Part shown: in pieces, positions 6,279 through 33,292 of the stretch
Position numbering within the stretch: position 1 is the stretch's first letter
Layout: every line of letters starts with the position of its first letter
Assembly (NCBI GenBank): GCA_024220525.1
Contig: JAMYWO010000114.1
Span: 84,374 to 117,665, forward strand
Reading direction: 5' to 3'
DNA from: Cochliopodium minus
Taxonomy: Eukaryota > Discosea > Himatismenida > Cochliopodiidae
Length of the DNA stretch: 33,292 nucleotides
Made by a program: the position numbers and the translations under genes
The notes under the pieces: model-generated
Databases searched by the model: none
What the model was told of the DNA's origin: nothing
What the model saw: only the letters and a program-made list of their open reading frames with translations

Positions 6279-6794
6279 TTAATTTCTATTTGAATAGCTT
6301 TTGTAATTCCTCTCCCTCATTCTTTGTATCAACCAGAAATATGCCATGAACAAAGGTAATCCGATTATAGCATTCGCAATCACAAGCACCCAGATCAATA
6401 TCCCCGTTATTATTTTGTTGAGATTGAATTTTTGGGAGATTTTGTAGATGTAGACCGAGATGAAGAGATCTGAGCATGCCAAAACATTCCATGTGATCAA
6501 TCCTGCACCCTTTATCTTGAATAATTTCTCAAACATTTCCAAATTGGATCCACTAGATGATAGAACCTTCATCTCTTCGAAATTTTCGATCACAACAAAG
6601 AGGAAGATGATACATTGAATCATCCAGAAGTAAAGATAATTTCTCACAAATTTCTTGGCAATGTTGGAATTTGGAAATAATGTTAATGGAATGAAAAATA
6701 TGATCAAAGAGAAAGAAGATATTTGAAAGAGGATTTCGTGATGGCTATCATACATTTTTTTTATATTTATTTTAATATCACATGATTGATTCAT
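6279..6794 (-). CDS. Small membrane protein, Aba4/DUF4281-like
   Basis: Single exon, 171 residues, one of the few intronless genes here. It has four hydrophobic segments, at about residues 23-40, 52-68, 95-115 and 128-155. The middle carries GAGLITWNVLACSDLFI, resembling the W-x-H/N-x5-DLF core of the DUF4281 family (abscisic-acid-deficient 4, Aba4), followed by IIGLPLFMAYFWLI as the last membrane span. In plants Aba4 is needed for neoxanthin synthesis. Homologues in non-photosynthetic organisms have no assigned role, so I give no function. A second in-frame ATG (MYDSHHE) could be the true start. It converges on the WWE/ARP8 gene (173 bp apart) and lies 94 bp downstream of the SHK-like kinase on the same strand. 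Confidence 0.65.
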   Translation of the reverse strand: MNQSCDIKINIKKMYDSHHEILFQISSFSLIIFFIPLTLFPNSNIAKKFVRNYLYFWMIQCIIFLFVVIENFEEMKVLSSSGSNLEMFEKLFKIKGAGLITWNVLACSDLFISVYIYKISQKFNLNKIITGILIWVLVIANAIIGLPLFMAYFWLIQRMRERNYKSYSNRN

Positions 6795-6888
6795 ACATTA
6801 AAAGTAATACAACAAATCATACATGTTGCTTTTGTGAATAAATTTAATAAACTTTTTATATAAAATAATTAAAAAAAAAAAAAACAAA

Positions 6889-9800
6889 TCAATTCTTGTA
6901 ATTGAAGTTTCCCTTCTTCTTTTCTCTCTCCCTTTGTATAACAATCTCATCATAATACTGATTGGTGAAAATCGGAAAAAAAAATCTGCCATTAACCAAA
7001 GCGAGAATGATATAACGTTTGGCCTTTTTGTTTTTGACAGAAAAAATGAGTTTTTTGTCTTCAGAGTCAGTCAAAATGGTGATATTGAGTTTACTTTTGA
7101 GGGCGGTGGCGTAGAGGATGATCTCATCGACCCATTCGTTACCCTTTTCAAAATTTTTGAGGTATTCAGTCCAAGATTTCTTGGGGTTTTTGCCTTCGTA
7201 GTACTCTTTGAAAGTTTTGCCGCCAAAACATTTTTTCTTGGTCTCATGACCTTTTTCTACGAGCCAGTTATAAACCTCGGTCCTCCTCTGCTCGACGAAA
7301 ACGTTCAGGTCGGACTTGTAGACCCAAAAACAAAGAGACTGAAAAAAAGTCTGCTTGTTATTTACAAATAATAAAGAGGGCACAGAAAAAAGTTTGAGTT
7401 TAAAAATGTTGGCAGCTCTATTCTGAACCAAACTCTGCGCATAGTTGTTTTCCTCCAAGTTAGAAATGTCCTTCGAACCTTTTTGACTGAGATACTGTAT
7501 GAAATCATCAAACTCCATCTCTTTCTGGCTGTTGATCTTAGAGAGGATCTTGGAACTCATCGCTTTGTTGAGGGGACTGAACTCCTCGTCGTCGGAGAGA
7601 TCCGAAGATTCCTCATCGTCGTTGAGGGGTAAGTACATTGAGTCGTATTGGGAGGAGGTCTCTTCAAGTTTGGGGCAGGGAATTTTCAGCTTCTCTTTGT
7701 AGAGATCGAGGAAGTTCTCCAACTTTTTGAAGATGGTCGTCTCTCCTTGCAGGAGCCTGAAGTTACACCACTTGAACGGAGGTTTTCCCAGCCTATTAAT
7801 TTTCAAAAAATAAGGAAATGGTTTTAATTGTTTATCAACAATTTAAAACTTTAAAAAAAATCTTCACAAAAATAAAAAAAATAACGATTTAAATAAAAAA
7901 AACAAAAAATATGAAACGAAATATAAAAATATTTTTTGGAAAAAAAAAACAAAAATAAACCAGTGCCAAAACTAATTGAAAAAAATTAAAATTTATATTT
8001 TTACCTAATGTGTTGAACATTCCCACCACCACCAACAATAGAAATAACGAGCTCGTTACCACTAGAACCAGAAACCCTGATCAAGTAAAAACCCTCCGAT
8101 TTGTTGGACAAAAGTTTGATGCTGTCTTGACGGCTGATGTTTCCGTGGAACCACTCTGAAAGAGCCAGTTGTTGGACGTTCTGTAGGAAGTCTGGAAAGA
8201 CTAGGTCTCCTAAAAGACATACCACTCTCCCAAAATTTTCCATTGTTACAACATCGTTGATAGCTTTTTTTCATTTTATCGATTGAATTAAAAATAATAC
8301 AAAATAAATTCAAAATAAAATATAAAAAATAAAAAAAAAATATTTTAAAGGGTTTTTTACCCAAAAGAGATTTCAAAGCACTTTTGACTTTGGGACCCCA
8401 TTTCTCGTCTTTTTTTTGATTAAATAAAGTTGCAAAAAATTGATTCCAAGATACTGAAATAACATCCTGGTTGAAAAAAAAAAATTGAAAAGAAAAAATC
8501 AAAAAATGAAAAAACTGACAGATCCAATATTATATTTCCAAAACTTATAGGCCTCGCTATCTTCTTTGGATATTGCGGAAAGGACAAAAAGCTCAGTGTC
8601 AAAGACGTGGAGGATTTCGGAAAACTTAGGTCTCTCCGGGTTATTAGTCTTGGTACAGTGGATGATAAGGTTAATGATGACTTCAGAGCAGGCGATTCTC
8701 TCCAAACTCCTCTTGATGAAGTTCTCCTTAGCTTTATCATTGTTGACGAATTCCATGTGGTTTTCAAGAGGCACAGGCCATTTGATCTCATCTTCCCACG
8801 AGATCAAGTTGTAGAGAATCCAACCGTAAGAATAGACGTCGGACTTTTCATCGGTGGCTCTGAATCTACGTGCTTCGGGGGAAGAGTACTCTGCATTACC
8901 CATTGCCATTCTTTCAGTTGAGAATTGTGTGAGGGCTAGACCAAAGTCTGTCACTTTACATTTGCTTGACGAGACCCACTTTCCTTCGACGAGCCCACTT
9001 AACAGGATGTTGCTGGGTTTTAAGTCGTTGTGTCTTAGGTTCATCTGTTCCACTCCCCAGTTCAGCCCCATCGCTATATGGTGTGCCATGCTTATTCTTT
9101 GGAAGAGAGATGGCTGGTTGGTTAGGTTTTTCGAGATGAAGTGTTTGAGATCTGTGTCCATCAATTCGGATACTATTTTTTTTCAGAATATATTAAATTG
9201 ATTAATTAATAAATTTTTGAAATCATACTCAATATCAATCCAAATTCATCATGATATGATACTCCTAGATATAATGAAACATACGGATTGGATACTTGTT
9301 TTACTATGCTCGCTTCTGATTCCAAACTTTGTTCATATGAACTATTTTGCTCTCTTCGATAGGATACATAATTTTAAATTTGAGCCAAATATTAATTAAT
9401 GTTGAATAAGAAATTTTAATATATTATATGTCCAACAATGTTGATAAATGAATTTATTTATCGATTTATAGCAAAAATATGATTATTTTGATGACTATTA
9501 TTTAAAAATTAAACGTATTCATTATATAATTTAATATATTCCTTGAATCAATGCTTTTGCATTATTTATCATATTTCTCTTCTTATTTTTTGAAATAGTT
9601 GATATTAATTTCCCTATTTTTCTTAATTTTACCTCCTCTCTCCAACTGTCTTCAATGCAACATCTATTCCCCATAATCTGCCCTAATAGAAAGTTTGTAT
9701 AAATAAAAATATGGTTGTAAACAAAAAAATATTTTTATAATTTTTGATATATTTACTTTATAAACGGATCCACAAACACCTGATCCAAGCATTTCTGGTT

Positions 9801-10095
9801 TTGTAAATGAACATTGTATATGTGAAAGGGGGATGAATTTGGTTTTATTCTGCAAAATCTCCTCAGAACAAAAAGGACAATAATTGAAATTCAATTCAGC
9901 AGGATGTCCATTAGGACAAGATATCTCTCCTTTATTGGCGATTGGAAAATTATTTTGTACACTATCGCTGTGACTGTTATTCATAGAGGAGTTGATACTA
10001 TTATTTTGATCTTTGCTTTCTTCTTCTGAATTACTATGAAAATCGAAATCATCATCTTCAGCTTCACTATTCCCAAATGAAAAAGATGTATTCAT
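6889..10095 (-). CDS. SHK-like kinase with SH2 domain and C-terminal inactive OTU-like domain
   Basis: Exons 10095-9757, 9682-9633, 9341-9229, 9172-8520, 8466-8361, 8263-8005 and 7792-6889 give 807 aa with closing phases. The N-terminus is acidic and Ser/Asn-rich, then a CPNGH...CPFC zinc-ribbon-like motif (about residues 61-79). The kinase domain has the glycine loop GSGVCGSVYK, VALK lysine, catalytic HNDLKPSN (Asn in place of the usual Arg of HRD), DFGLAL, and SPEARR followed by DVYSYGW. As in Dictyostelium SHK kinases, a helical linker leads to an SH2 domain (WFHGNISRQDS, then FYLIRVSGSS with the phosphotyrosine-binding Arg). After an acidic linker the last ~160 residues follow the OTU protease pattern (TFFQSL, WVDEIILYATAL, LNITIL), but Cys is replaced by Thr and the final His by Phe. 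The kinase looks active; the OTU part looks like a binding module. The OTU call is the weakest part. Confidence 0.8.
9342..9632 (-). other. Large intron of the SHK-like kinase gene
   Basis: This 291-nt intron separates the VALK lysine exon from the alpha-C helix exon. It begins GTAAAAT and ends GCAAAATAG on the minus strand. Its acceptor lacks a clear T-tract, unlike most introns in the window, but it is the only choice that keeps the kinase frame open. I see no gene, RNA or element inside it. Confidence 0.7.
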
Positions 10096-10295
10096 TTTTT
10101 TTTATTTTTTATATTTCGATTCAATTATAAAATCAACGAGATATCCTTTTAAAACAAAGATATAGGTCCAAAATACTTTACTCACATCGATAAAGGAGCA
10201 ATTAGTCAAAAATTCCAAAAGCCTTAATATCCTCACAAATTCGAAAGATAAAAAAAATAGAATTAAAAAGATTCCAGACAAGAGGTTTATTTGAA

Positions 10296-12405
10296 TTAAT
10301 CATCTTCTTTTTGATTTTCATAAACATTGTTGATGCTCTGGTAAGAAACGTTATTGTTACTTTTGGATCTCATCGGAACAAGCATCTTTTTCTTCTCAGT
10401 CAAGACTTGCTTAGCGTTTTCAGCAGCACTCTTTTCTATGGACAATATAATGTTACTCATAATGTACAAGCCCATGAAAGCATACAAAATCAAGATGATT
10501 TTTTGGAACTCGCCTTTAACAGTCAAGTCTCCATAACTAATTAAAAGAGAAATTATCTTAAAAAAAAAACTAAAAATTTTTTTTTTTAAGTTTACCCAAT
10601 GGTACAAATAACAACCACAACAAAGTAAATGGAATCAATATAATCCCAGTCTTCAGTTTGGGTGAAAAGAACACCACCAAGCAAAATGAAAACAATGGTG
10701 GTAAAAATACCCATGGAAAGCTTTAATCTGGTAGGAAGATCGGAAAAGGTGGAGTACAAGCGAATACAAACGTTTGGTTTTCTTTTAGGGACCAATTGAG
10801 TACCCGCAAAACTGTCAATTTCGCTTAATTCAGGATCTTTTTCGGTAGTTTCAGGCTCGTACATTTTTTCTTCCAAGATTTTTTTATTTTTTAACTTTGC
10901 AACATATTCTTTTCTTGCGTTTCTTCTTCCGATCAAGTGTAATAAATAAAATTTGATGTACAAAAAAGCTAATGCAAAGGCAATGATCAAAATCTTGCCT
11001 CCAGCCCTTTTAACGACTATATCACCAAAACCAATGGTGGTAAGAGTAATAGTCATACTAATAAAAAAAATATTTAACATTTTCCTTACAAAAAAATTAA
11101 TAATGAGATTTACAAGTAAAGGGACTCATTGAATGTCCACTCTTCGATATATGAAAAGATGACAGATCCAATAATCACAAATAACAAAAAGAGAAAAGCA
11201 AGCAATATTACTTTGTTGTAATCATCCTGCACTTTAAACACTCCAAAGAATCTTTTTATGAAAATAATGAAAATTTAAGGCTGTTATTAAAAAAAAAAAA
11301 AATCACCTCAATTTTTTTCTGTCTATAGGAGTAAGGAGCAATGCATTTCTTTTTTTAAGTTCGTAGTTTCTAAGGGAGATACTGCAAATGGTATAAATTT
11401 TTAAAAACAAGATCCCAAACAAAAAAAGAATGATGAAAACCAATCCTACAGATGATTTGGGTTCAATATCTCCGAATCCTTTCAAATTTAAAAGAATATA
11501 TTCGTTAAAAGTTGTTATAAAAAAGAGAACTATTTACCTATAGTACACAATGTAGTAGCGGAGAAATATAATGAATCTAAAAAGCTGAGCTTTTCTGTTA
11601 TTCCAAACACTATGGTTCCAAAAACTAATGCTACAAAGAAGAAAAAAAAGCAAGCGAAGAGCCTCGATTGTGACAAGTGCTTGATCTTCTCTTTTATTGT
11701 CTGGGGCTCTCTTTCGATGCTTACTTCTTTTCCTCTCCAGTCTACTTCACTGTTTTTGTATAATTTGATGTTCCTTAATGTTTGTTTATTGTTGACATAA
11801 AATCTGTATCTCTCTTTTTTTATTTATGATTTATTATAATCAATATTAAAAATTCGATAATATTTTCATATTACGAGCAATGCTGCTTGTCATGTATGCC
11901 AAAATAAATAAAGATGTGATCGACCAAAATATGAAAAATAATCTGCTGTAAGATTTGGTTGGTGTTAATCCTCCATATCCGACAGTTGATAATGTTTCTT
12001 GTTCAAATAAATATTGAGTATTTTCAATGAAATGTACAATTCAAATATTAATTATTATAAATAAATATTCATTTGAATTTTCACCCTTTTTAATATTTTT
12101 GAGCGATATTTATTTGAATAAGTGAATTTATATTAATATATATTACTAATTAGGATAAAAGATTGTATCAATTGGGTAATTCAAGTTTCCAAAATTCTTT
12201 AGTTAAATATCAGTTTTGATATTTGTATACCTGCAGTAAAATATAATCCATCAAGATATGGCCAATCTTCCAATAATGTGAATGAAACTGATCCCATAAT
12301 TATTGTTATTACAAAGAGTGTTATACTCAAAACAATCGAATTTTTGGTGAGAATATTCTTGAAATAAAAGTAATCTAAATTATTTGAGCTTTCTTCATTC
12401 TCCAT
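10296..12405 (-). CDS. Four-pore-domain (8TM/4P) potassium channel in one polypeptide
   Basis: Exons 12405-12231, 11997-11875, 11813-11538, 11478-11307, 11251-11114, 11057-10596 and 10536-10296 give 528 aa, all phases closing. The chain is four TM-pore-TM repeats. Each first helix ends in an acidic-aromatic turn (EDWPYLDGLYF, EKLSFLDSLYF, EEWTFNESLYF, EDWDYIDSIYF) followed by a K+ selectivity filter: TLSTVGYG, TLCTIGFGD, TLTTIGFGD, ICTIGYGD. Inner helices follow each filter. There is no voltage-sensor S4. Cytosolic linkers after repeats 1 and 3 are charged (the latter EPETTEKDPELSEIDSF). The C-terminus has an amphipathic SIEKSAAENAKQVLTEKKK helix. K+ channels need four pore loops; usual proteins bring one or two, so this chain could form a pore alone. 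The start is the only ATG before TM1. Confidence 0.88.
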
Positions 12406-18695: not shown

Positions 18696-19290
18696 ATGGA
18701 TCCACCCACAAAATTGACAAGTAAATTTTATTTTATTGTTTTCCATCTAATGAAAATGATTGAAAAATTCAAAAAGAAAATGCTATTGAAGATATTTTCG
18801 GAAATGGTATCTTTATTGAAGGACCTATCCTCCAGATTTTATCCTTTACCAAATTAACGCAGAATATAAATAATAATTATGATCCTCAAGGACAAAACAC
18901 AACCAAAGAAAAATATAAGTAAAATTTTTTATGTCAAAATTATGCATATCTTTGGTTATATCTATAATCAAACAACTAGGAAGAAGATAGATTAATTTTT
19001 ATTAAAAATATATATTGTGAAAGTTTTAAAAATTAAATACTTTTTGAATAAAGGTTTGACCNNNNNNNNNNNNNNNNNNNNNNNNNNNNNNNNNNNNNNN
19101 NNNNNNNNNNNNNNNNNNNNNNNNNNNNNNNNNNNNNNNNNNNNNNNNNNNNNNNNNNNNNAGAATAGATCATTACTTGATTAATAAAATTGGGGAGCGG
19201 GGAATAATGATAATAATTAAAATGACAAACCATGAAAAACTAGAAAAGAAAATTGGAGATCCAATTAATCTTTGGGAGTCACTTAAATAA
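18696..19290 (+). CDS. Stand-alone RPA70 N-terminal-domain (RPA70N) protein, interrupted by assembly gap
   Basis: Exon 1 (18696-18720) joins an exon from about 18772 to 18918, encoding MDPPTKLTKNAIEDIFGNG and EGPILQILSFTKL. This matches the opening of replication protein A large subunit (RPA1: ..GAI..I....KPILQVINI..I). A donor at 18919 and an acceptor before 19054 lead into a 100-N gap. After the gap the frame reads GERGIMIIIKM, then KIGDPINLWESLK and stop, matching the end of the RPA70N OB-fold (RRVVILMELEVL...KIGNPV). RPA1 normally continues for about 450 residues with three DNA-binding OB-folds. Here the frame stops, leaving only the protein-interaction domain. I found no donor that would extend it. 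The middle is missing, so the join is inferred. Confidence 0.55.
19062..19161. other. Assembly gap (100 N)
   Basis: Exactly 100 N bases, the conventional placeholder for a gap of unknown size. It falls inside the RPA70N-like gene, just after a new exon begins. Confidence 0.95.
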
Positions 19291-20664: not shown

Positions 20665-23600
20665 TCAAGACAATAATTTAAAAAAGGTGATGCACAATAC
20701 AGCCAATGCAACAGGGACAGATCCTTTTGGAAATTGAAAATTGATTAAATAAAAAATATTAATAAAAAATTGCTTTACCTTCAATTGTCCACTCAGATGA
20801 TTGATCGCTCGAATTTTTGGCGACGAGAAAGTGCCTGGTTTGGATCCAGTCCTCCATTTCTTTCTTTTCAAAATGGCCTGTCTCATATACATAAGTGAAC
20901 TCCTTTGGCACCTAAAAATAAAAAAATAAAATAAAAAAATAAAAAATAAAAAATAAAAAAATATGACGTACATATTATTTTCAAAACAATATAAATGAAA
21001 AAATTTACCCACAAATAGCAAATGGAGGGGTCTTTTAAGTCTTCGTTTCGAAACCACTCAGCACGGGCACCGTTGAAAACTCCTACACCATGGCTCTTTC
21101 CTTCTTTACAAACGAGCTTATAACCATCCCAAGAGTATTTTGGTGTCTGAAAGGTAGGATGAACCCAACCTACCGTACCTAAAAAAATTTATTTAATAAA
21201 AAATATGAAAAATTAAAAATAATTTCAAAAAAAGAAAAGAAAAAAGAAATTTTAAAAAATTTTAAAATAATCTTAAAATAATTTTAAAAAAATAATTTAC
21301 CATCTTTGTGGAAAGATACGTACTCACCCTTTTTGTTTTTGACAGTTCCCCCCGTGTAAGAATTTTTGTAGAGGGAAGACAAATAACCAGCCTAAAATGA
21401 AATTAAAAAAAAACAATGAAACAAAACAAAATTGAAAGCAAAATCATTTTAATATCAAAAAAAAAAAAAAAAATAAAAAAAAATTAAGTTTACCATTTCT
21501 TCTTCCTTCAAAGAAACCTTGTAAGGCACAAAACAATTGACGAGGAGAGCCCAATGAAGAAGAACGTCCTTCTCAACAAAGTCCAACAAGATGTCGTGCT
21601 TGTTCGATTTTATCTTCAAAGAAAAAACTCCGCTCTTCGACTGCACGATGAAGGAGGAGACAGAGTTGTAGGGGATGGAGAGGTGGGGGCTGGTGTCTTG
21701 TGGCTTCTTGTACACGAGCACCGCGTCCCTCTTCAGCTTCACTAGCCTCTTTTTGAATCCGCGGAAACTCTTTGTCTTTTTGAAGTTGAGGTTGGAGCTC
21801 TCTAGAAGCTGAGTACAATTTGGATAGTAAAAAAAAAAAATTATTTTAAAATGTTAAAAACGTTCAAAAAAAAAAAAAAAGTGAACAATTTATTAAAAAT
21901 AATTTAAATATTCTTGTGGAGAAGTTTTTTAAAAACAACTTTTGGACAGATCACCATGGCAAACAAAAACAATTTTATCAAAAATGCTCAGGAGTTATAA
22001 ATAAAATATAAAAAAAAAAGAAAATAAAAATACTCAATAGATTTTATTGAAAATAAAAATAAAATGAAAAAAATAATTACGTAATTCTCGGTGAATTGGC
22101 TATCCAAGTCGAACTTGGACTTGGAGCTCTTGTCTTTCTTTATCAAGATCTCTTGCTGCTTGGGTTTGTAGACAACAGGAGAGAGATCAGTGTGTCGATC
22201 GCCATTCTTCTTGGTCTTCCTGGGGCTGGTGGTTTTGGAGTCGCTGTTGGGAGTGGTGTTCTTAGACTTGACTTTTTCCCTACGAGAATTCTTGAGGCTT
22301 TCCGAAGACTTTGGAGTTTCGATTCTAGGACTGAAGATGCTCAAGGGACTGACTTCTATGTTAGGAGTTTTGCTGGTGGGAACGGTCTCCCTGATGATGA
22401 TGGGGGTGTCCAGTGTTCTAAAACGCAAGTCTTTGGGGCTGCTGTCGGTGATTTGCAAGGACATTCTGCTGCTGTTTTCAAAGTTGTTGGTTCTGTTGCT
22501 TTCTTTTGTTTTGTTGGAGCTCCAACTGTCTTTTTTGACTTTGTTGCTTTCTAGGTTGTTCAGAGGACTCTCCTTTGCGTAGTTTTCGGTGTGTCTCCTT
22601 GGACTAGATCTGTTTCGAGGGCTCTCCGGTATCTTGGTGGGACTATCTAAGGCAGTTTCCACATTGATTTTCAAACTTTCCTTTGGTTTGGGGCTCTCTT
22701 TATTTCTGGGACTCTCTCTCGATTTGGAACTCTCTTTATTTTTGGGGCTCTCTTTAGTTATTGGATTGTCTTTGATACTGTAGTTTTCTGTGTAACGTCT
22801 TCTTGGGCTCTTTCGAGGACTCTCTGGTTTTTTAGGACTATCTATGCTGACTTTTGTACTTTCTACATTAATTTTCATAGTTTCTTTAGATTTGGGGCTT
22901 TCTTTAGGTTTGGGGCTTTCTTTCTTTTTGATTGGTGGGGTGGTAATGAGTTTGAAATCATCTATGTTTATTCCATGTGAAACTCTTTTATTTTTCTCAT
23001 CATGCCCAATAATGTCTTTAGAACTTTTGATAGGAGTTGATTTCTTCGAAAGGATCCTGTCATCATCCACAAAAATGTTTTGGTAATAGTTCGAGTTGAT
23101 TGATTCATTTTTGGAATCATTGGAAGAATCATCAATCAAATAATACTCCTCCTTCTCTTCCTTCTTCCCCAAAGCTTTTCTGTAATCCAAACTGTCATTA
23201 AACTTGATGGTAGCTTCCTTAAAGTCATAACTGTCGTCCAACTTGATGGGCTGGTCCTTAGAGTGAGTCTCGGAACCAGAAGACTTCTTCCTCTTTTCTT
23301 TTTTGTTTCTCTTCTTCATTTTTCTTGCAGGGGAGTCTAAAGCACCATTCGAAACAACATGAGGAGTGTCAAGCTCCTTCAGTTCAAGAGACCTTTCCAA
23401 CAAAGTAAGGTTCTTCTTGTCCTTGCTGATCCTCCTCGAACCCCTCTTCTTTCTCCGAGCCCCCTTCGTGATACTCTCATCTAAATCCAAAGTGAGATTA
23501 TCGTTGCTCTTCTTGGAGATGTGGCTGTATATGTTGGGTTCGGAGCTCTTCTTCTTTCTCATCAAACTTTGTTTGGGATTCAAGATCTCATCTTCTCCCC

Positions 23601-24624
23601 ATTTGATCTTGATGCTCGTGCTCCTTTCATCCACCAGATCATGATCATCATAGCTCGTCTTGGGGATCTTATTTTCATTTCTGATCAACTCACTGCTCCT
23701 GGGATCCCTCGCACTCGTGCTATTCCATCGATTGAATTCCCTTTTCTCCCTTATACTCTCCCTATCACCATCCCAATCCTTCAAACTCCTTTCTATACTT
23801 ATTTTCCTTTCATTCGGAACCAATGGCTCCATCTTCTCATTATTCGCATCCAAATTGATCTTGTTGAATTCTGTGCTGCTCATCACTCTCCCCAACAATC
23901 CTTTTTTCACATCACCAAAGCTATATTCTCTCTGCACCTTGGAGCTATTTACCCTCTTCAATGGCTTCTTCTTTTTATTATTTCCCTCATTCAATAGAAG
24001 ATCTATGCTATCTTCCTCCTCTTCTTCTGCATCCTTTAATGATTTCTCCAAATAGGTTTTGCTCGATCCCTTGGAGTAACTGTGATATATCTTCTTTTTT
24101 GGTCTCATTATCTTTGTTTCTGATTGTGGTGTGTTCTTTGTTGCAGGTGGATTTATATTTACCTCATTATTATTCATATTGAATGATTTGCTCATATTAT
24201 TAATTGATGTTTCTGTATCCTTCTCTTGTAATTCGATTTTTATGTTTCCTTTTGATCTATTTCTCTCTACTTTAATTTTCCTTTTGTTTTTTGGTGTAGT
24301 GGTGGGTGAATCTGATGAATATCCAGACCCATTTAATTTTTTTTTGAGATATTTATTCTTATTGAAAGCAGTAGGTGTATAATGGGGTGTGTTCTCTGTT
24401 TCCATTTCTTTTTTCTTGATGGATTTGATTAGTGATGATTTTGTCAATGTACCTTTATCTGAGCTATTATCTTCATCATCATCCTCCCTCATATTATCTC
24501 TCAATTGTTTTTTTAGTCTTAAAATAACTTGTTTTTTTGATCTTAAAGTTTCTTTGAGAGAATGGATTTGACCATCACTCTTTCTGATCATTTCCAATAT
24601 CTCATCTTTTGATATATTTTCCAT
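20665..24624 (-). CDS. SP-rich protein with coiled coil, PH domain and hydrophobic C-terminal tail
   Basis: Exons 24624-22081, 21808-21494, 21391-21301, 21178-21009, 20911-20779 and 20723-20665 give 1103 aa. Residues 1-45 form a short coiled coil (QIHSLKETLRSKKQVILRLK). Residues ~50-840 are low-complexity, Lys/Ser/Pro/Asp-rich, with dozens of SP and TP sites. A PH domain follows (about 850-950: FRGFKKRLVKLKRDAVLVYK, LSIPYNSVSSFIV, and the closing helix DVLLHWALLVNCF with the invariant Trp). Next is a ~150-residue segment of unknown type with WDGYKLVCKEG and GVGVFNGARAEWF. The last residues, PVALAVLCITFFKLLS, are hydrophobic and fit a tail anchor. The sequence suggests a phospho-regulated membrane-associated scaffold; that role is inferred. 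All long plus-strand frames across 22096-24571 are its antisense shadows. Confidence 0.75.
22565..22925 (-). repeat. Tandem duplication inside the SP-rich region
   Basis: Two neighbouring units of about 55-60 codons share the order KESPKPKES, then MKINVES or LKINVET, then DSPKKPESPR or DSPTKIPESPR, then RRRYTENY or RRHTENY, then KESP. Short KESPxxKES motifs also repeat within each unit. The high similarity suggests a recent internal duplication within the disordered region of the PH-domain gene. Confidence 0.7.
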
Positions 24625-24831
24625 TTGTTAACAAAAAAACGATCAAAATTTTTTTTTTTTTTTGAAAATTTATATTTAACTTTTTTTCTAAAGATATCGT
24701 GTTATGGAAAAAAAATGGGTAAATGTGAAAGGTTTAATAAAATTATAGTTATATCATCACAGTTTTTTGAACAAATAATAAAAAAACAAATTTATGAAAA
24801 AAATAGAAAGTTATGATTCTTCCCTTTAAAT

Positions 24832-30181: not shown

Positions 30182-32061
30182 ATGGGAGACAAAAGCGAAG
30201 ATTCCTTATTGGGAAATTTATTTTTCTATGGATCTACCTTGGCTCTCTTGGTGGGAGGATATGTTGCATATAAAAAATATGTAGAAGAAAACAACACAAA
30301 TAATAATAATACAGAGAGAAAAGGAAATAATCTTAACAATGTGAGTTATGTAGTGCAACATAATACACAAATCTCCAATAATAATAAAACTATAGAGAAT
30401 AATAATCAAAAAGAAAATAAAAAAGAGGAGGAGCCCATTGTATTAGATTTGGAACTTAATGTCGATCCTAATACCAAATTTAAAGATTTCAATAATCAAA
30501 GCTTGGAGCAAATCTTGTTGGAATGTGAGAGACTCAAAAAAGATTGGACCGATACATCTTTCCCTGCGACCCAGAAATCTGTGGGAAATTTAATGAGAGG
30601 GCAAATAGAATGGAAGAGGTTGGAAAAAAAAATATAAAAAAAAGTTCTTTTTATTCAAGGGGAATTTATATAATATAAATTATTAAAAATATTAATAATT
30701 TTCATAGATCAACCAAAATGATGAAAAATCCAAAGTTGATTGATGGGATCATTGAGCCTGGAGATATTCTTCAAGGAAATCTCGGAGACTGTGTATATCT
30801 TATTTTTTTCCGATTCATTATTTTGTTTTTAATCAATTATCAACAATCAGTACTTGTTGTCTGCTTTGTAAGAATCATTTTTTAAAATTTTCATTATTAT
30901 TATTTTTTCATTTTATTTTATTGATTTATATTTTTTACTTAGATCAATCCTTGCGGAGTATCCAAAAAGAATGGAGAAAATTTTTGTGATTCATGAGTTG
31001 AGAAGAGGAATTTTCTGTACCAGATTGTATTTGGATGGAATACCAACAAATGTTATGGTAGAGTTTTTATTTATTGATTTCATTTTTATTATATTTTTAT
31101 TGTTTTTTTTTTTTCATAGTTATTTTAAATATTTTTTTTGATTTTTATTTTATTTTATGATTTATCTTTAATTATGTTTTATTTTATTTATTAATTTTTT
31201 TTTTGTTAGGTTGACGACTTCATCCCTTGTCTCAGAGGTACCAACGAAGCAGCTTTTTCTCAAAACCACGAAGATGAGTTGTGGGTTATAATGATGGAAA
31301 AGATCTATGCAAAGTAAAAAAAAATTCCTCTTAAGCATTTTATAAAAATTTTTTGATAAATAAAAAAATTAAAAGATGTTATGGTGGGTATGAAAAAATT
31401 GAAGGAGGAATAACAGGTAAAATTATATTTTTTCTTTTATTAACTTTTATTTTATTTTTTATTTCATTTTATATTTTTATTTTTTTTGAAATTTGAACAG
31501 GTGACGCATTATCTGATCTTGTAAATACATTTTTTTTATTTTTTTTTTGAATATACATTTTTATTTTTGTTTTTGTTTTAGACAGGTGCACCTTACAGCA
31601 TTTACAAAACCAAAGAAAAAGATCCATCTCCTGAACAACTTTGGAAGATCATGTTGGATGCTAGAAAGAGAACATACTTCATTGCTGCCAGTGTAATTTT
31701 TTTTATTTTTTATTCATTTATTTTTATTTTTTATTTTTTATTGATTATTTTTTATTGATTATTTTTTATTTTTGATTTTTGATTTTTGATTTTTGATTTT
31801 TGATTTTGATTTTTTATTTTTATTTTTTTTAATTTTTTAACTAATTAATTCATTTTTTCAGGTTCCTGATGATCCTGAACAAGATTTGATGAAATTGTTG
31901 GGTCTTGTAGAAGGTCACGCTTACGCTGTTTTGGACGTCAAACAAGTTGGAGAATTGAAGCTTGTTCAAATTAGAAAGTGATCATTTACTTTTATTTTTT
32001 GCTTTATTAACTTTATTATTTTTTTTCAAAAAATTAGTCCTTGGGGTAATTCAACAGAATG
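30182..32061 (+). CDS. Membrane-anchored calpain-like cysteine protease (3' end not in assembly)
   Basis: Exons 30182-30618, 30708-30792, 30851-30867, 30943-31057, 31210-31313, 31376-31416, 31501-31520, 31582-31692, 31862-31977 and 32038-32061 encode about 363 residues so far. A hydrophobic span at about residues 10-28 (LFFYGSTLALLVGGYVAYKK) precedes an Asn-rich linker. The calpain core follows: DTSFPATQKSVG, then GDILQGNLGDCYLLSALSIL with the catalytic Cys, VDDFIPC, GGYEKIEGG, LTGAPYS, GLVEGHAYAVLDV with the catalytic His, and RNPWGNSTEW with the catalytic Asn. The whole catalytic triad is present, so the enzyme looks active if complete. The last visible exon ends at a GTAAAT donor. The intron enters a simple repeat and an ambiguous base, and no continuation is found. 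A membrane anchor on a calpain is unusual. Confidence 0.85.
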
Positions 32062-32065: not shown

Positions 32066-32096
<31 letters not shown>

Positions 32097-32143
32097 TATT
32101 TTTTTATTTTTTTATTTTTTTATTTTTTTATTTTTTTATTTTT
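32064..32143. repeat. Simple repeat (T-rich, unit about TTTTTTTA)
   Basis: About 80 bp of short T5-7A units inside the last visible calpain intron, ending at an ambiguous base (N at 32144). Such tracts cause sequencing and assembly errors, and the sequence type changes right after it. Confidence 0.85.
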
Positions 32144-32144
32144 N

Positions 32145-33292
32145 TTTCTATTTCCTCTTCATATTCAAATTCATCTCATGGAGGAATAGTCGGATATAAT
32201 GATAATGGAGGGAATATTTTAAAATGTAATTCATATGACAACATCATCACCACTGCTTCCTCAAATTCATCTCTTGGAGGAGTAATTGGATACAATAATA
32301 ATGGAGGAAGTATTTATTATTGCAATTCACATGACAACATCATCACCACTGCTTCCTTAAGTTCATACAATGGAGGAGTAATTGGATACAATAATAATGG
32401 AGGAAGTATTTATTATTGTAATTCTTATAATAACATCTTGGGTTTCACTTCTGCATCAATTTTTCCCAATGGAGGAGTAATTGGATACAATAATGGAGGA
32501 GTATTTATTATTGCAATTCATATAATAACACCCTGAAAGTCACTTCAAATTCAACTATTCCTATCATTTACAATGGAGGGATAATCGGATACAATAATGG
32601 AGGTAGCATTTCTAATTGCAATTCAAATGGCAACACTCTCACTTGCATCGCATTCTATTCCTTTGTATCACGGGTGGATTCTTCCCTAAGAAATGGAGGG
32701 ATAGTAGGATTTAATAATGGAGGAAGTGTTACTTATTGTAGTTCTTCCAATAACACTCTCACATCTGATTCTTATTTTAGTGCTTTTTTAGTTTCTTCTT
32801 ATATATTCAATGGTGGGGTAATAGGATCTAATAATGGAGGGAGTATTTCTTCTTGCTATTCATACAACAACACTATTATTTCAACATCAACAACTAATCC
32901 AAGATCAACATATACAGGTGCATGCATTTCAATAGTTTATAGTGGGGGTATAAGTGCATACAGTGACTCTTATCTTGTTTCGTGCAATTCATCAAGTAAT
33001 TTCTTCACATCCATTTCGATTGCTCTAGCGAACTTATCTACAAATAGTTTGCAAGTATCTTCAATTTCTTATTGTGGAGGAGTGCTTGGTTACGTAGACA
33101 CCAATGGAGGAGTCACAAATTCTTTTTCTACCAAAAACGTTATTTCTTCTTCTTCTTCTGTTAACTCTTCTTCCATAAACCCTTCCGCAGCATTATCGTA
33201 TTGTGGTGGAGTGGTTGGTTACAAAACCGGAAACATAACAAATGTGGTTTCTACTTACAACAAAGTGAATACTTTTTCATTTTCTCTTTCTT
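32145..33292 (+). CDS. GLUG-like tandem-repeat protein (partial, one frame break, runs off right edge)
   Basis: The plus strand is coding-like from just after the N to the window end. About ten repeats of 96-131 nt each carry NGGVIGYNNNGGSIYYCNS or a variant, followed by an Asn/Thr/Ser-rich stretch. The G-G-[VI]-[IVL]-G...G...C pattern resembles GLUG-type repeats of secreted or surface proteins that form beta-solenoids. Repeats begin near 32180, 32276, 32371, 32470, 32572, 32694, 32813, 32942, 33075 and 33204. The first four are near-identical; later ones diverge. Between about 32490 and 32510 one base of the repeat consensus is missing and the frame shifts, which may be a sequencing error or a true break. 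No ATG, signal peptide or end is in view. Some repeats carry a single Cys, which may pair between coils. Confidence 0.6.

Follow-up and report, generated by a model that had tools for sequence, protein, structure and literature searches.

The channel gene and its surroundings

The window analysed here, a stretch of 33,292 nucleotides from a contig of Cochliopodium minus (JAMYWO010000114.1), contains on its minus strand, from 12405 to 10296, seven exons that can be joined into a spliced open reading frame of 1587 nt, corresponding to 528 codons followed by TAA. The exons, together with the one intron whose join had been queried in a previous sequence-only reading of this DNA, are the following:

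12231..12405, minus strand: exon 1, carrying the ATG, then M1 and a portion of the pore helix from repeat 1
11875..11997, minus strand: exon 2, with the remaining pore helix, the filter TVGYG-G (11986-11972) and M2 of repeat 1; best of 8 junctions
11538..11813, minus strand: exon 3, covering linker 1-2, M3 and the repeat 2 pore helix as far as the first Gly codon of the filter; its 5' edge is placed with the least certainty
11307..11478, minus strand: exon 4, with the remainder of TIGFG, M4 of repeat 2 and the start of linker 2-3; best of 12 junctions
11252..11306, minus strand: intron 4, 55 nt, the queried join
11114..11251, minus strand: exon 5, with the end of linker 2-3, M5 and the extracellular turn of repeat 3; it has no in-frame ATG
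10596..11057, minus strand: exon 6, with the pore helix of repeat 3, TIGFG (11038-11024), M6, linker 3-4, M7 and the repeat 4 pore helix as far as the first Gly codon of the filter; 5' edge best of 35 junctions
10296..10536, minus strand: exon 7, with the remainder of TIGYG, M8 of repeat 4, the C-terminal tail and TAA; best of 36 junctions

That reading had described a frame closing through seven exons and encoding four TM-P-TM repeats with full selectivity filters, and on the predicted splicing the description is confirmed: the frame gives 528 amino acids and the TAA stop, with the filters TVGYG, TIGFG, TIGFG and TIGYG at residues 63, 190, 302 and 447, and thus TxGxG in 4/4 pore loops. We infer from the sequence that the gene is spliced and expressed. 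All six introns are of the GT-AG type; intron 1 measures 233 nt, far above the 55-61 nt of the other five, and we count its length against our best explanation. The GC content is 0.12-0.19 in the introns versus 0.28-0.35 in the exons (values computed with an intron 2 acceptor other than that of the final model). Every P-loop (4/4) is interrupted by an intron.

Outside the channel gene, 14 of the 20 ORFs scanned in the window have a Pfam match, including F-box, RCC1, protein kinase and WWE domains. The region 8499-10095, which lies downstream of the channel and is likewise on the minus strand, holds a protein kinase domain (8502-9182); the motif CPNGH...CPFC occurs in an ORF at 9667-10101, which is probably the N-terminal part of the kinase gene. 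Another ORF (6282-6797, minus) matches ABA4-like (PF14108, E = 1.5e-10), a membrane family named from plants. At 21991-24627 (minus) a stop-free ORF of 879 residues, Ser/Lys/Pro-rich by eye and with no Pfam match, lies in the stretch of highest GC content in the profile (0.40). Gly/Asn-rich repeats at 32066-33291 (plus) reach past the window edge; within this region, 32494-33291 has a match to the GLUG motif (E = 3.7e-07), and the product might, at a guess, be a surface or adhesin-like protein. A run of 100 N at 19062-19161 is probably an assembly gap, and a single N occurs at 32144.

Splice junctions and unity of the reading frame

At the four P-loop junctions we compared GT-AG pairs with a donor at most 60 nt and an acceptor at most 80 nt from the sites of the model (8, 12, 35 and 36 candidate pairs), scoring each junction on the joined chain with a leave-one-out profile from which its own repeat was omitted. 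The splice of the model ranks first at 4/4 junctions, with margins of 29.0, 18.6, 16.7 and 13.7 bits. For the two linker junctions (2 and 4) the reading frame is the sole testable criterion. At junction 2, in intron 2, 8 of the 25 GT-AG pairs stay in frame, and the starting residues of linker 1-2 are for this reason the least certain of the chain; the pair used (11814/11813) is the shortest of the 8 open ones (61 nt), and keeps all of M2. At junction 4, four of the 14 GT-AG pairs are open to the end of the chain, and all four connect repeat 2 with repeat 3.

Methionines are present in the 528-residue chain at positions 1, 37, 94, 296, 360 and later, with none over residues 95-295, so that neither repeat 2 nor repeat 3 has its own ATG start; M94 sits within M2 of repeat 1. 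A single uninterrupted exon of 462 nt (exon 6) joins repeats 3 and 4. The lack of Met between 94 and 296 and the meeting of repeats 3 and 4 inside one exon make two separate genes unlikely, and a two-gene model, in which repeat 3 would be left without a start codon of its own, was set aside on these grounds. The earlier proposal of one coding unit is thus supported by the missing ATG of repeat 3, by the shared exon 6 and by the junction scores and frames. As to the doubt then raised over the join 11307/11251, retention of intron 4 brings in a stop directly after residue 249, and every open pair at this junction links the two middle repeats.

Such retention defines the main alternative product, because the truncated chain would still be a complete 2P unit: were intron 4 kept, or the chain otherwise split, a 249-residue subunit formed by repeats 1 and 2 could dimerise in the manner of K2P and TPK channels. 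We regard this two-pore product or processing variant as quite improbable, since this would leave repeat 3 without an ATG ahead of M5, and since intron 4 resembles the neighbouring introns in length (55 nt), GC content (0.16) and GT-AG borders.

Pore repeats

The Pfam family Ion_trans_2 (PF07885) matches the whole chain in four stretches (173.3 bits, E = 8.9e-52). The sequence-only reading had proposed an HMM comparison with this family as a check, and when each piece contains one repeat all four repeats singly exceed the curated cut-off of 22.5 bits (48.5, 46.8, 58.5 and 55.1 bits). Ion_trans reaches 34.6 bits on the whole chain (cut-off 25); its best stretch, at residues 151-217, covers the last part of the profile, and thus represents a pore without a sensor. 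In the Pfam scan of the chain only these two pore families, Ion_trans_2 and Ion_trans, are above cut-off, and no voltage-sensor, cyclic-nucleotide, RCK or EF-hand family is among the matches listed. With pore families only and two TM segments per repeat, the absence of voltage sensors suggested by the same reading is borne out. The Kir (IRK) profile gives 13.1 bits on the repeat 1 piece, below its cut-off of 22.7, and is absent from the whole-chain matches listed; the NCBIfam models for single-pore K+ channels score far under their cut-offs (NF040645, 65.7 bits with a cut-off of 300; NF007828, 46 bits with a cut-off of 425).

The four repeats align gap-free across 95 columns, and the six repeat pairs stand at 16-21 SD over 300 shuffles each, with local identities of 31-41%. 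When a profile of the four repeats was run against the six frames of the window, 7 ORF pieces passed the inclusion threshold, all of them from the channel gene; the next-best matches are two overlapping ORFs near 30679-30986 (plus), under threshold with E = 0.023 and 0.028. By this search neither a fifth repeat nor a second copy is present above threshold in the window. A single-sequence fold of the exon 6 piece had a mean pLDDT of 57.9 and a pTM of 0.34, values too low for use.

Topology and asymmetry of the chain

The TM boundaries were set by us from hydrophobicity and from the filter positions. The linkers, of about 49, 38 and 70 residues, contain 12, 9 and 15 K+R, respectively, while the outer segments contain 1, 2, 2 and 1 K+R with 3-6 acids each. 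This charge pattern agrees with chain ends in the cytosol and with all four P-loops facing outward; it does not extend to the N-terminal segment, whose 23 residues include 2 K+R and 4 acids. From the end of M1 to the filter Thr there are 17-19 residues in 4/4 repeats, the M1 ends being those of our own assignment.

A closer look at the pore-helix acid, the filter Asp and the inner-helix Gly was prompted by their presumed counterparts in KcsA, E71, D80 and G99. Repeat 1 (ETLSTVGYGG) ends its filter in GYGG, has an acidic pore-helix residue (E59) and no filter Asp; repeats 2-4 have GFGD, GFGD and GYGD, with no acid at the pore-helix position equivalent to E59. A glycine in the middle of the inner helix is found only in repeat 2 (G213) and repeat 4 (G471). 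As the order of the repeats is fixed in the chain, the predicted pore would be asymmetric by construction.

These differences also bear on whether each pore is assembled within one chain. The filter residue of repeats 2 and 3 differs from that of repeats 1 and 4, and repeat 1 has no filter Asp, as one might expect if two chains contributed to a pore (say, repeats 1-2 from one chain and repeats 3-4 from another), or if some repeats were regulatory rather than pore-lining. However, all four filters are complete, and the linkers are probably long enough to connect neighbours in one ring; we therefore give such arrangements little credence.

Relatives and origin of the four repeats

Among solved structures the best match of the whole chain is TOK (64.6 bits; 94 bits for the repeat profile), and the solved chains closest to it are those of TOK and K2P channels, followed by small bacterial pores, which from their entry codes we take to be NaK. 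Taken singly, repeat 1 has its best match in TOK (47.7 bits) and repeat 4 in KCNK2 (56.8 bits). There were no matches in phages, and none for the whole chain in viral_contigs; these collections of relatives are prokaryotic and viral, and bear little on eukaryotic orthologues. The repeat profile led us to fetch 87 loci, namely the best 80 of at least 97 confirmed prokaryotic loci plus 7 viral ones. A matching ORF is present in 86 of the 87 (all but L082), and it contains one pore domain in 86/86 cases, including an ORF (L076) with a second filter-like motif yet one domain match; 17 of the 86, at 110-146 aa, are as short as a bare 2TM/1P protein.

A tree was calculated from 45 rows: the four repeats, 7 pore segments of eukaryotes, and 34 of the 86 prokaryotic or viral pores, these being the ones with at least 38 bits; the remaining 52 were left out. 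Repeats 2 and 3 pair with each other (94/88), and repeat 4 groups with pore 2 of K2P (94/79). Repeat 1 is on a long branch and its placement is unsupported; the long branches, that of repeat 1 included, were flagged by the tool. Of six other groupings tested none is rejected: the AU p-value is 0.42 for a clade of all four repeats, and 0.27-0.39 for the five other pairings. Introns 3 (11538/11478) and 6 (10596/10536) each split the first filter-Gly codon of their repeat (2 and 4, respectively), at positions that differ by one base. By our arithmetic (four introns, repeats of 285 nt) such a coincidence has a chance of about 6%, and for this reason it only hints at the doubling of a 2P unit. Taken together, tree and introns neither favour nor disfavour the argument of the sequence-only reading that, given the filter order Y-F-F-Y, the two halves are not simple copies.

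Interpretation

K+ pores are usually rings of four units built from two or four chains. Here four complete K+ filters are found in one chain, which may thus line a whole pore. The open frame, the four Ion_trans_2 domains, the four TxGxG filters, the charge pattern and the lack of any non-pore Pfam domain above cut-off together form the basis on which we consider it probable that the locus is a eukaryotic 8TM/4P K+ channel gene, a complete K+-selective pore being made by each 528-residue chain, whether that chain is alone or loosely paired with another. What the sequence points to is a K+ channel independent of voltage, in which a single chain provides all four quarters of the pore; that the pore comes from one chain, and is both K+-selective and independent of voltage, is what we infer from these features, and a monomer closing a four-fold pore is plausible.

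In the mechanism that we envisage, both ends of the chain would be cytosolic, and the four M1-P-M2 repeats would fold round one axis, so that a full K+-selective pore would be formed by a single chain, or by either partner where two chains are loosely dimerised. As it has no voltage sensor, and no domain recognised as one for ligands, calcium or nucleotides, the channel would serve as a K+ pathway that is either a background one or under metabolic control; alternatively, control might be exerted by a partner protein or by phosphorylation.

Among the titles and abstract openings listed from the open-access literature, we found no 8TM/4P channel with canonical filters. In the accessible text of a 2012 survey of protozoan K+ channels (PMC3283738) the term 'four pore' does not appear, and in that of a 2025 review of K+ channel modules (PMC12332018) '8TM' appears only as a yeast hybrid. 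Whether the chain represents an undescribed class of K+ channel, 8TM/4P with canonical TxGxG filters in all four loops, neither sensor nor ligand domain, and one polypeptide as a complete asymmetric pore, seems to us an evenly balanced question. The layout itself is already seen in bacterial K+-uptake proteins, but the four units here have true K+-channel filters. If the reading is correct, the chain would be the missing step in the series 2TM/1P, 4TM/2P, 8TM/4P, as well as a present-day parallel to the supposed ancestor of the SKT transporters (KtrB/TrkH/HKT). It would show pore concatenation reaching four units without voltage sensors and outside these transporters, and would bear on the origin of SKT proteins from K+ channels. 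A natural four-unit chain would also allow each filter position to be changed singly, without engineered concatemers.

Comparison with known systems

The K2P and plant TPK channels resemble the chain in being tandem 2TM/1P units without a voltage sensor, and significant K2P matches were obtained. In K2P channels M1 and P1 are separated by an extracellular cap about 60 residues long, whereas the chain, with its 17-19 residues from the end of M1 to the filter Thr, is without a K2P-type cap. The pores of TPKs carry TxGYGD and TxGFGD, similar to the filters found here. K2P and TPK channels differ from the chain, with its four pores, in being dimers with two pores per chain, as described for plant TPKs (PMC8619664, PMC3694395); a further difference from TPKs is that EF-hand is not among the Pfam matches listed for the chain. 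Pore 2 of TOK has the pattern E-x-W-x-Y ... YF ... TIGYGD in common with the chain. The fungal TOK channels are reported to have eight TM segments and two pores (PMC3410928), in the form of a 6TM unit followed by a 2TM unit, whereas the eight TM segments of the chain go with four pores. Each repeat also resembles a bare pore module of the kind represented by NaK and the other 2TM/1P prokaryotic channels; these have a single pore domain per chain (86/86 matching ORFs from the best 80 of at least 97 prokaryotic loci and 7 viral loci).

The sequence-only reading had held that known families supply one or two pores per chain; the generalization is countered by KtrB/TrkH, with four M1PM2 domains, and by CNGK, with four repeats. 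Two-repeat 6TM channels are on record from dinoflagellates, oomycetes and chlorarachniophytes (PMC7576140). CNGK is described as a K+-selective four-repeat pseudotetramer with GYG or GFG (PMC4749565), and shares with the chain the four repeats in one polypeptide and the type of filter. Its repeats are 6TM units, each with a cyclic-nucleotide-binding domain, whereas the chain has two TM segments per repeat and no such domain listed.

KtrB has four M1-P-M2 repeats per chain (PMC4714889). The KtrB/TrkH protomer is described as four non-identical fused M1PM2 domains in which only the first filter glycine is kept in each loop, and KtrB as forming homodimers (PMC12059179). The chain might therefore work as a dimer of this kind, with a pseudo-tetrameric pore in each of two associated chains and gating by a partner encoded elsewhere, an explanation that overlaps with the loose dimer of our own. 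The shared plan and the homodimers of KtrB speak for it, and the lack of a recognised gating domain in the chain makes a partner plausible; but the filters of the chain are full TxGxG, unlike those of KtrB, and the Pfam matches listed for the chain with E values up to 1 do not include TrkH, so that we rate this alternative as unlikely, though somewhat less so than the other two. Returning to the preferred reading, a K+-selective channel with a complete pore from one chain, its likeness to the SKT proteins is one of plan, as both have four covalently fused M1-P-M2 units per chain (the SKT plan being that of KtrB/TrkH), and its difference is one of filters, TxGxG being retained in 4/4 loops of the chain. 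The protein is best classed as four K+ channel pore units combined in one chain on the plan of the SKT proteins, with filters of the channel type and with a presumed function and assembly.
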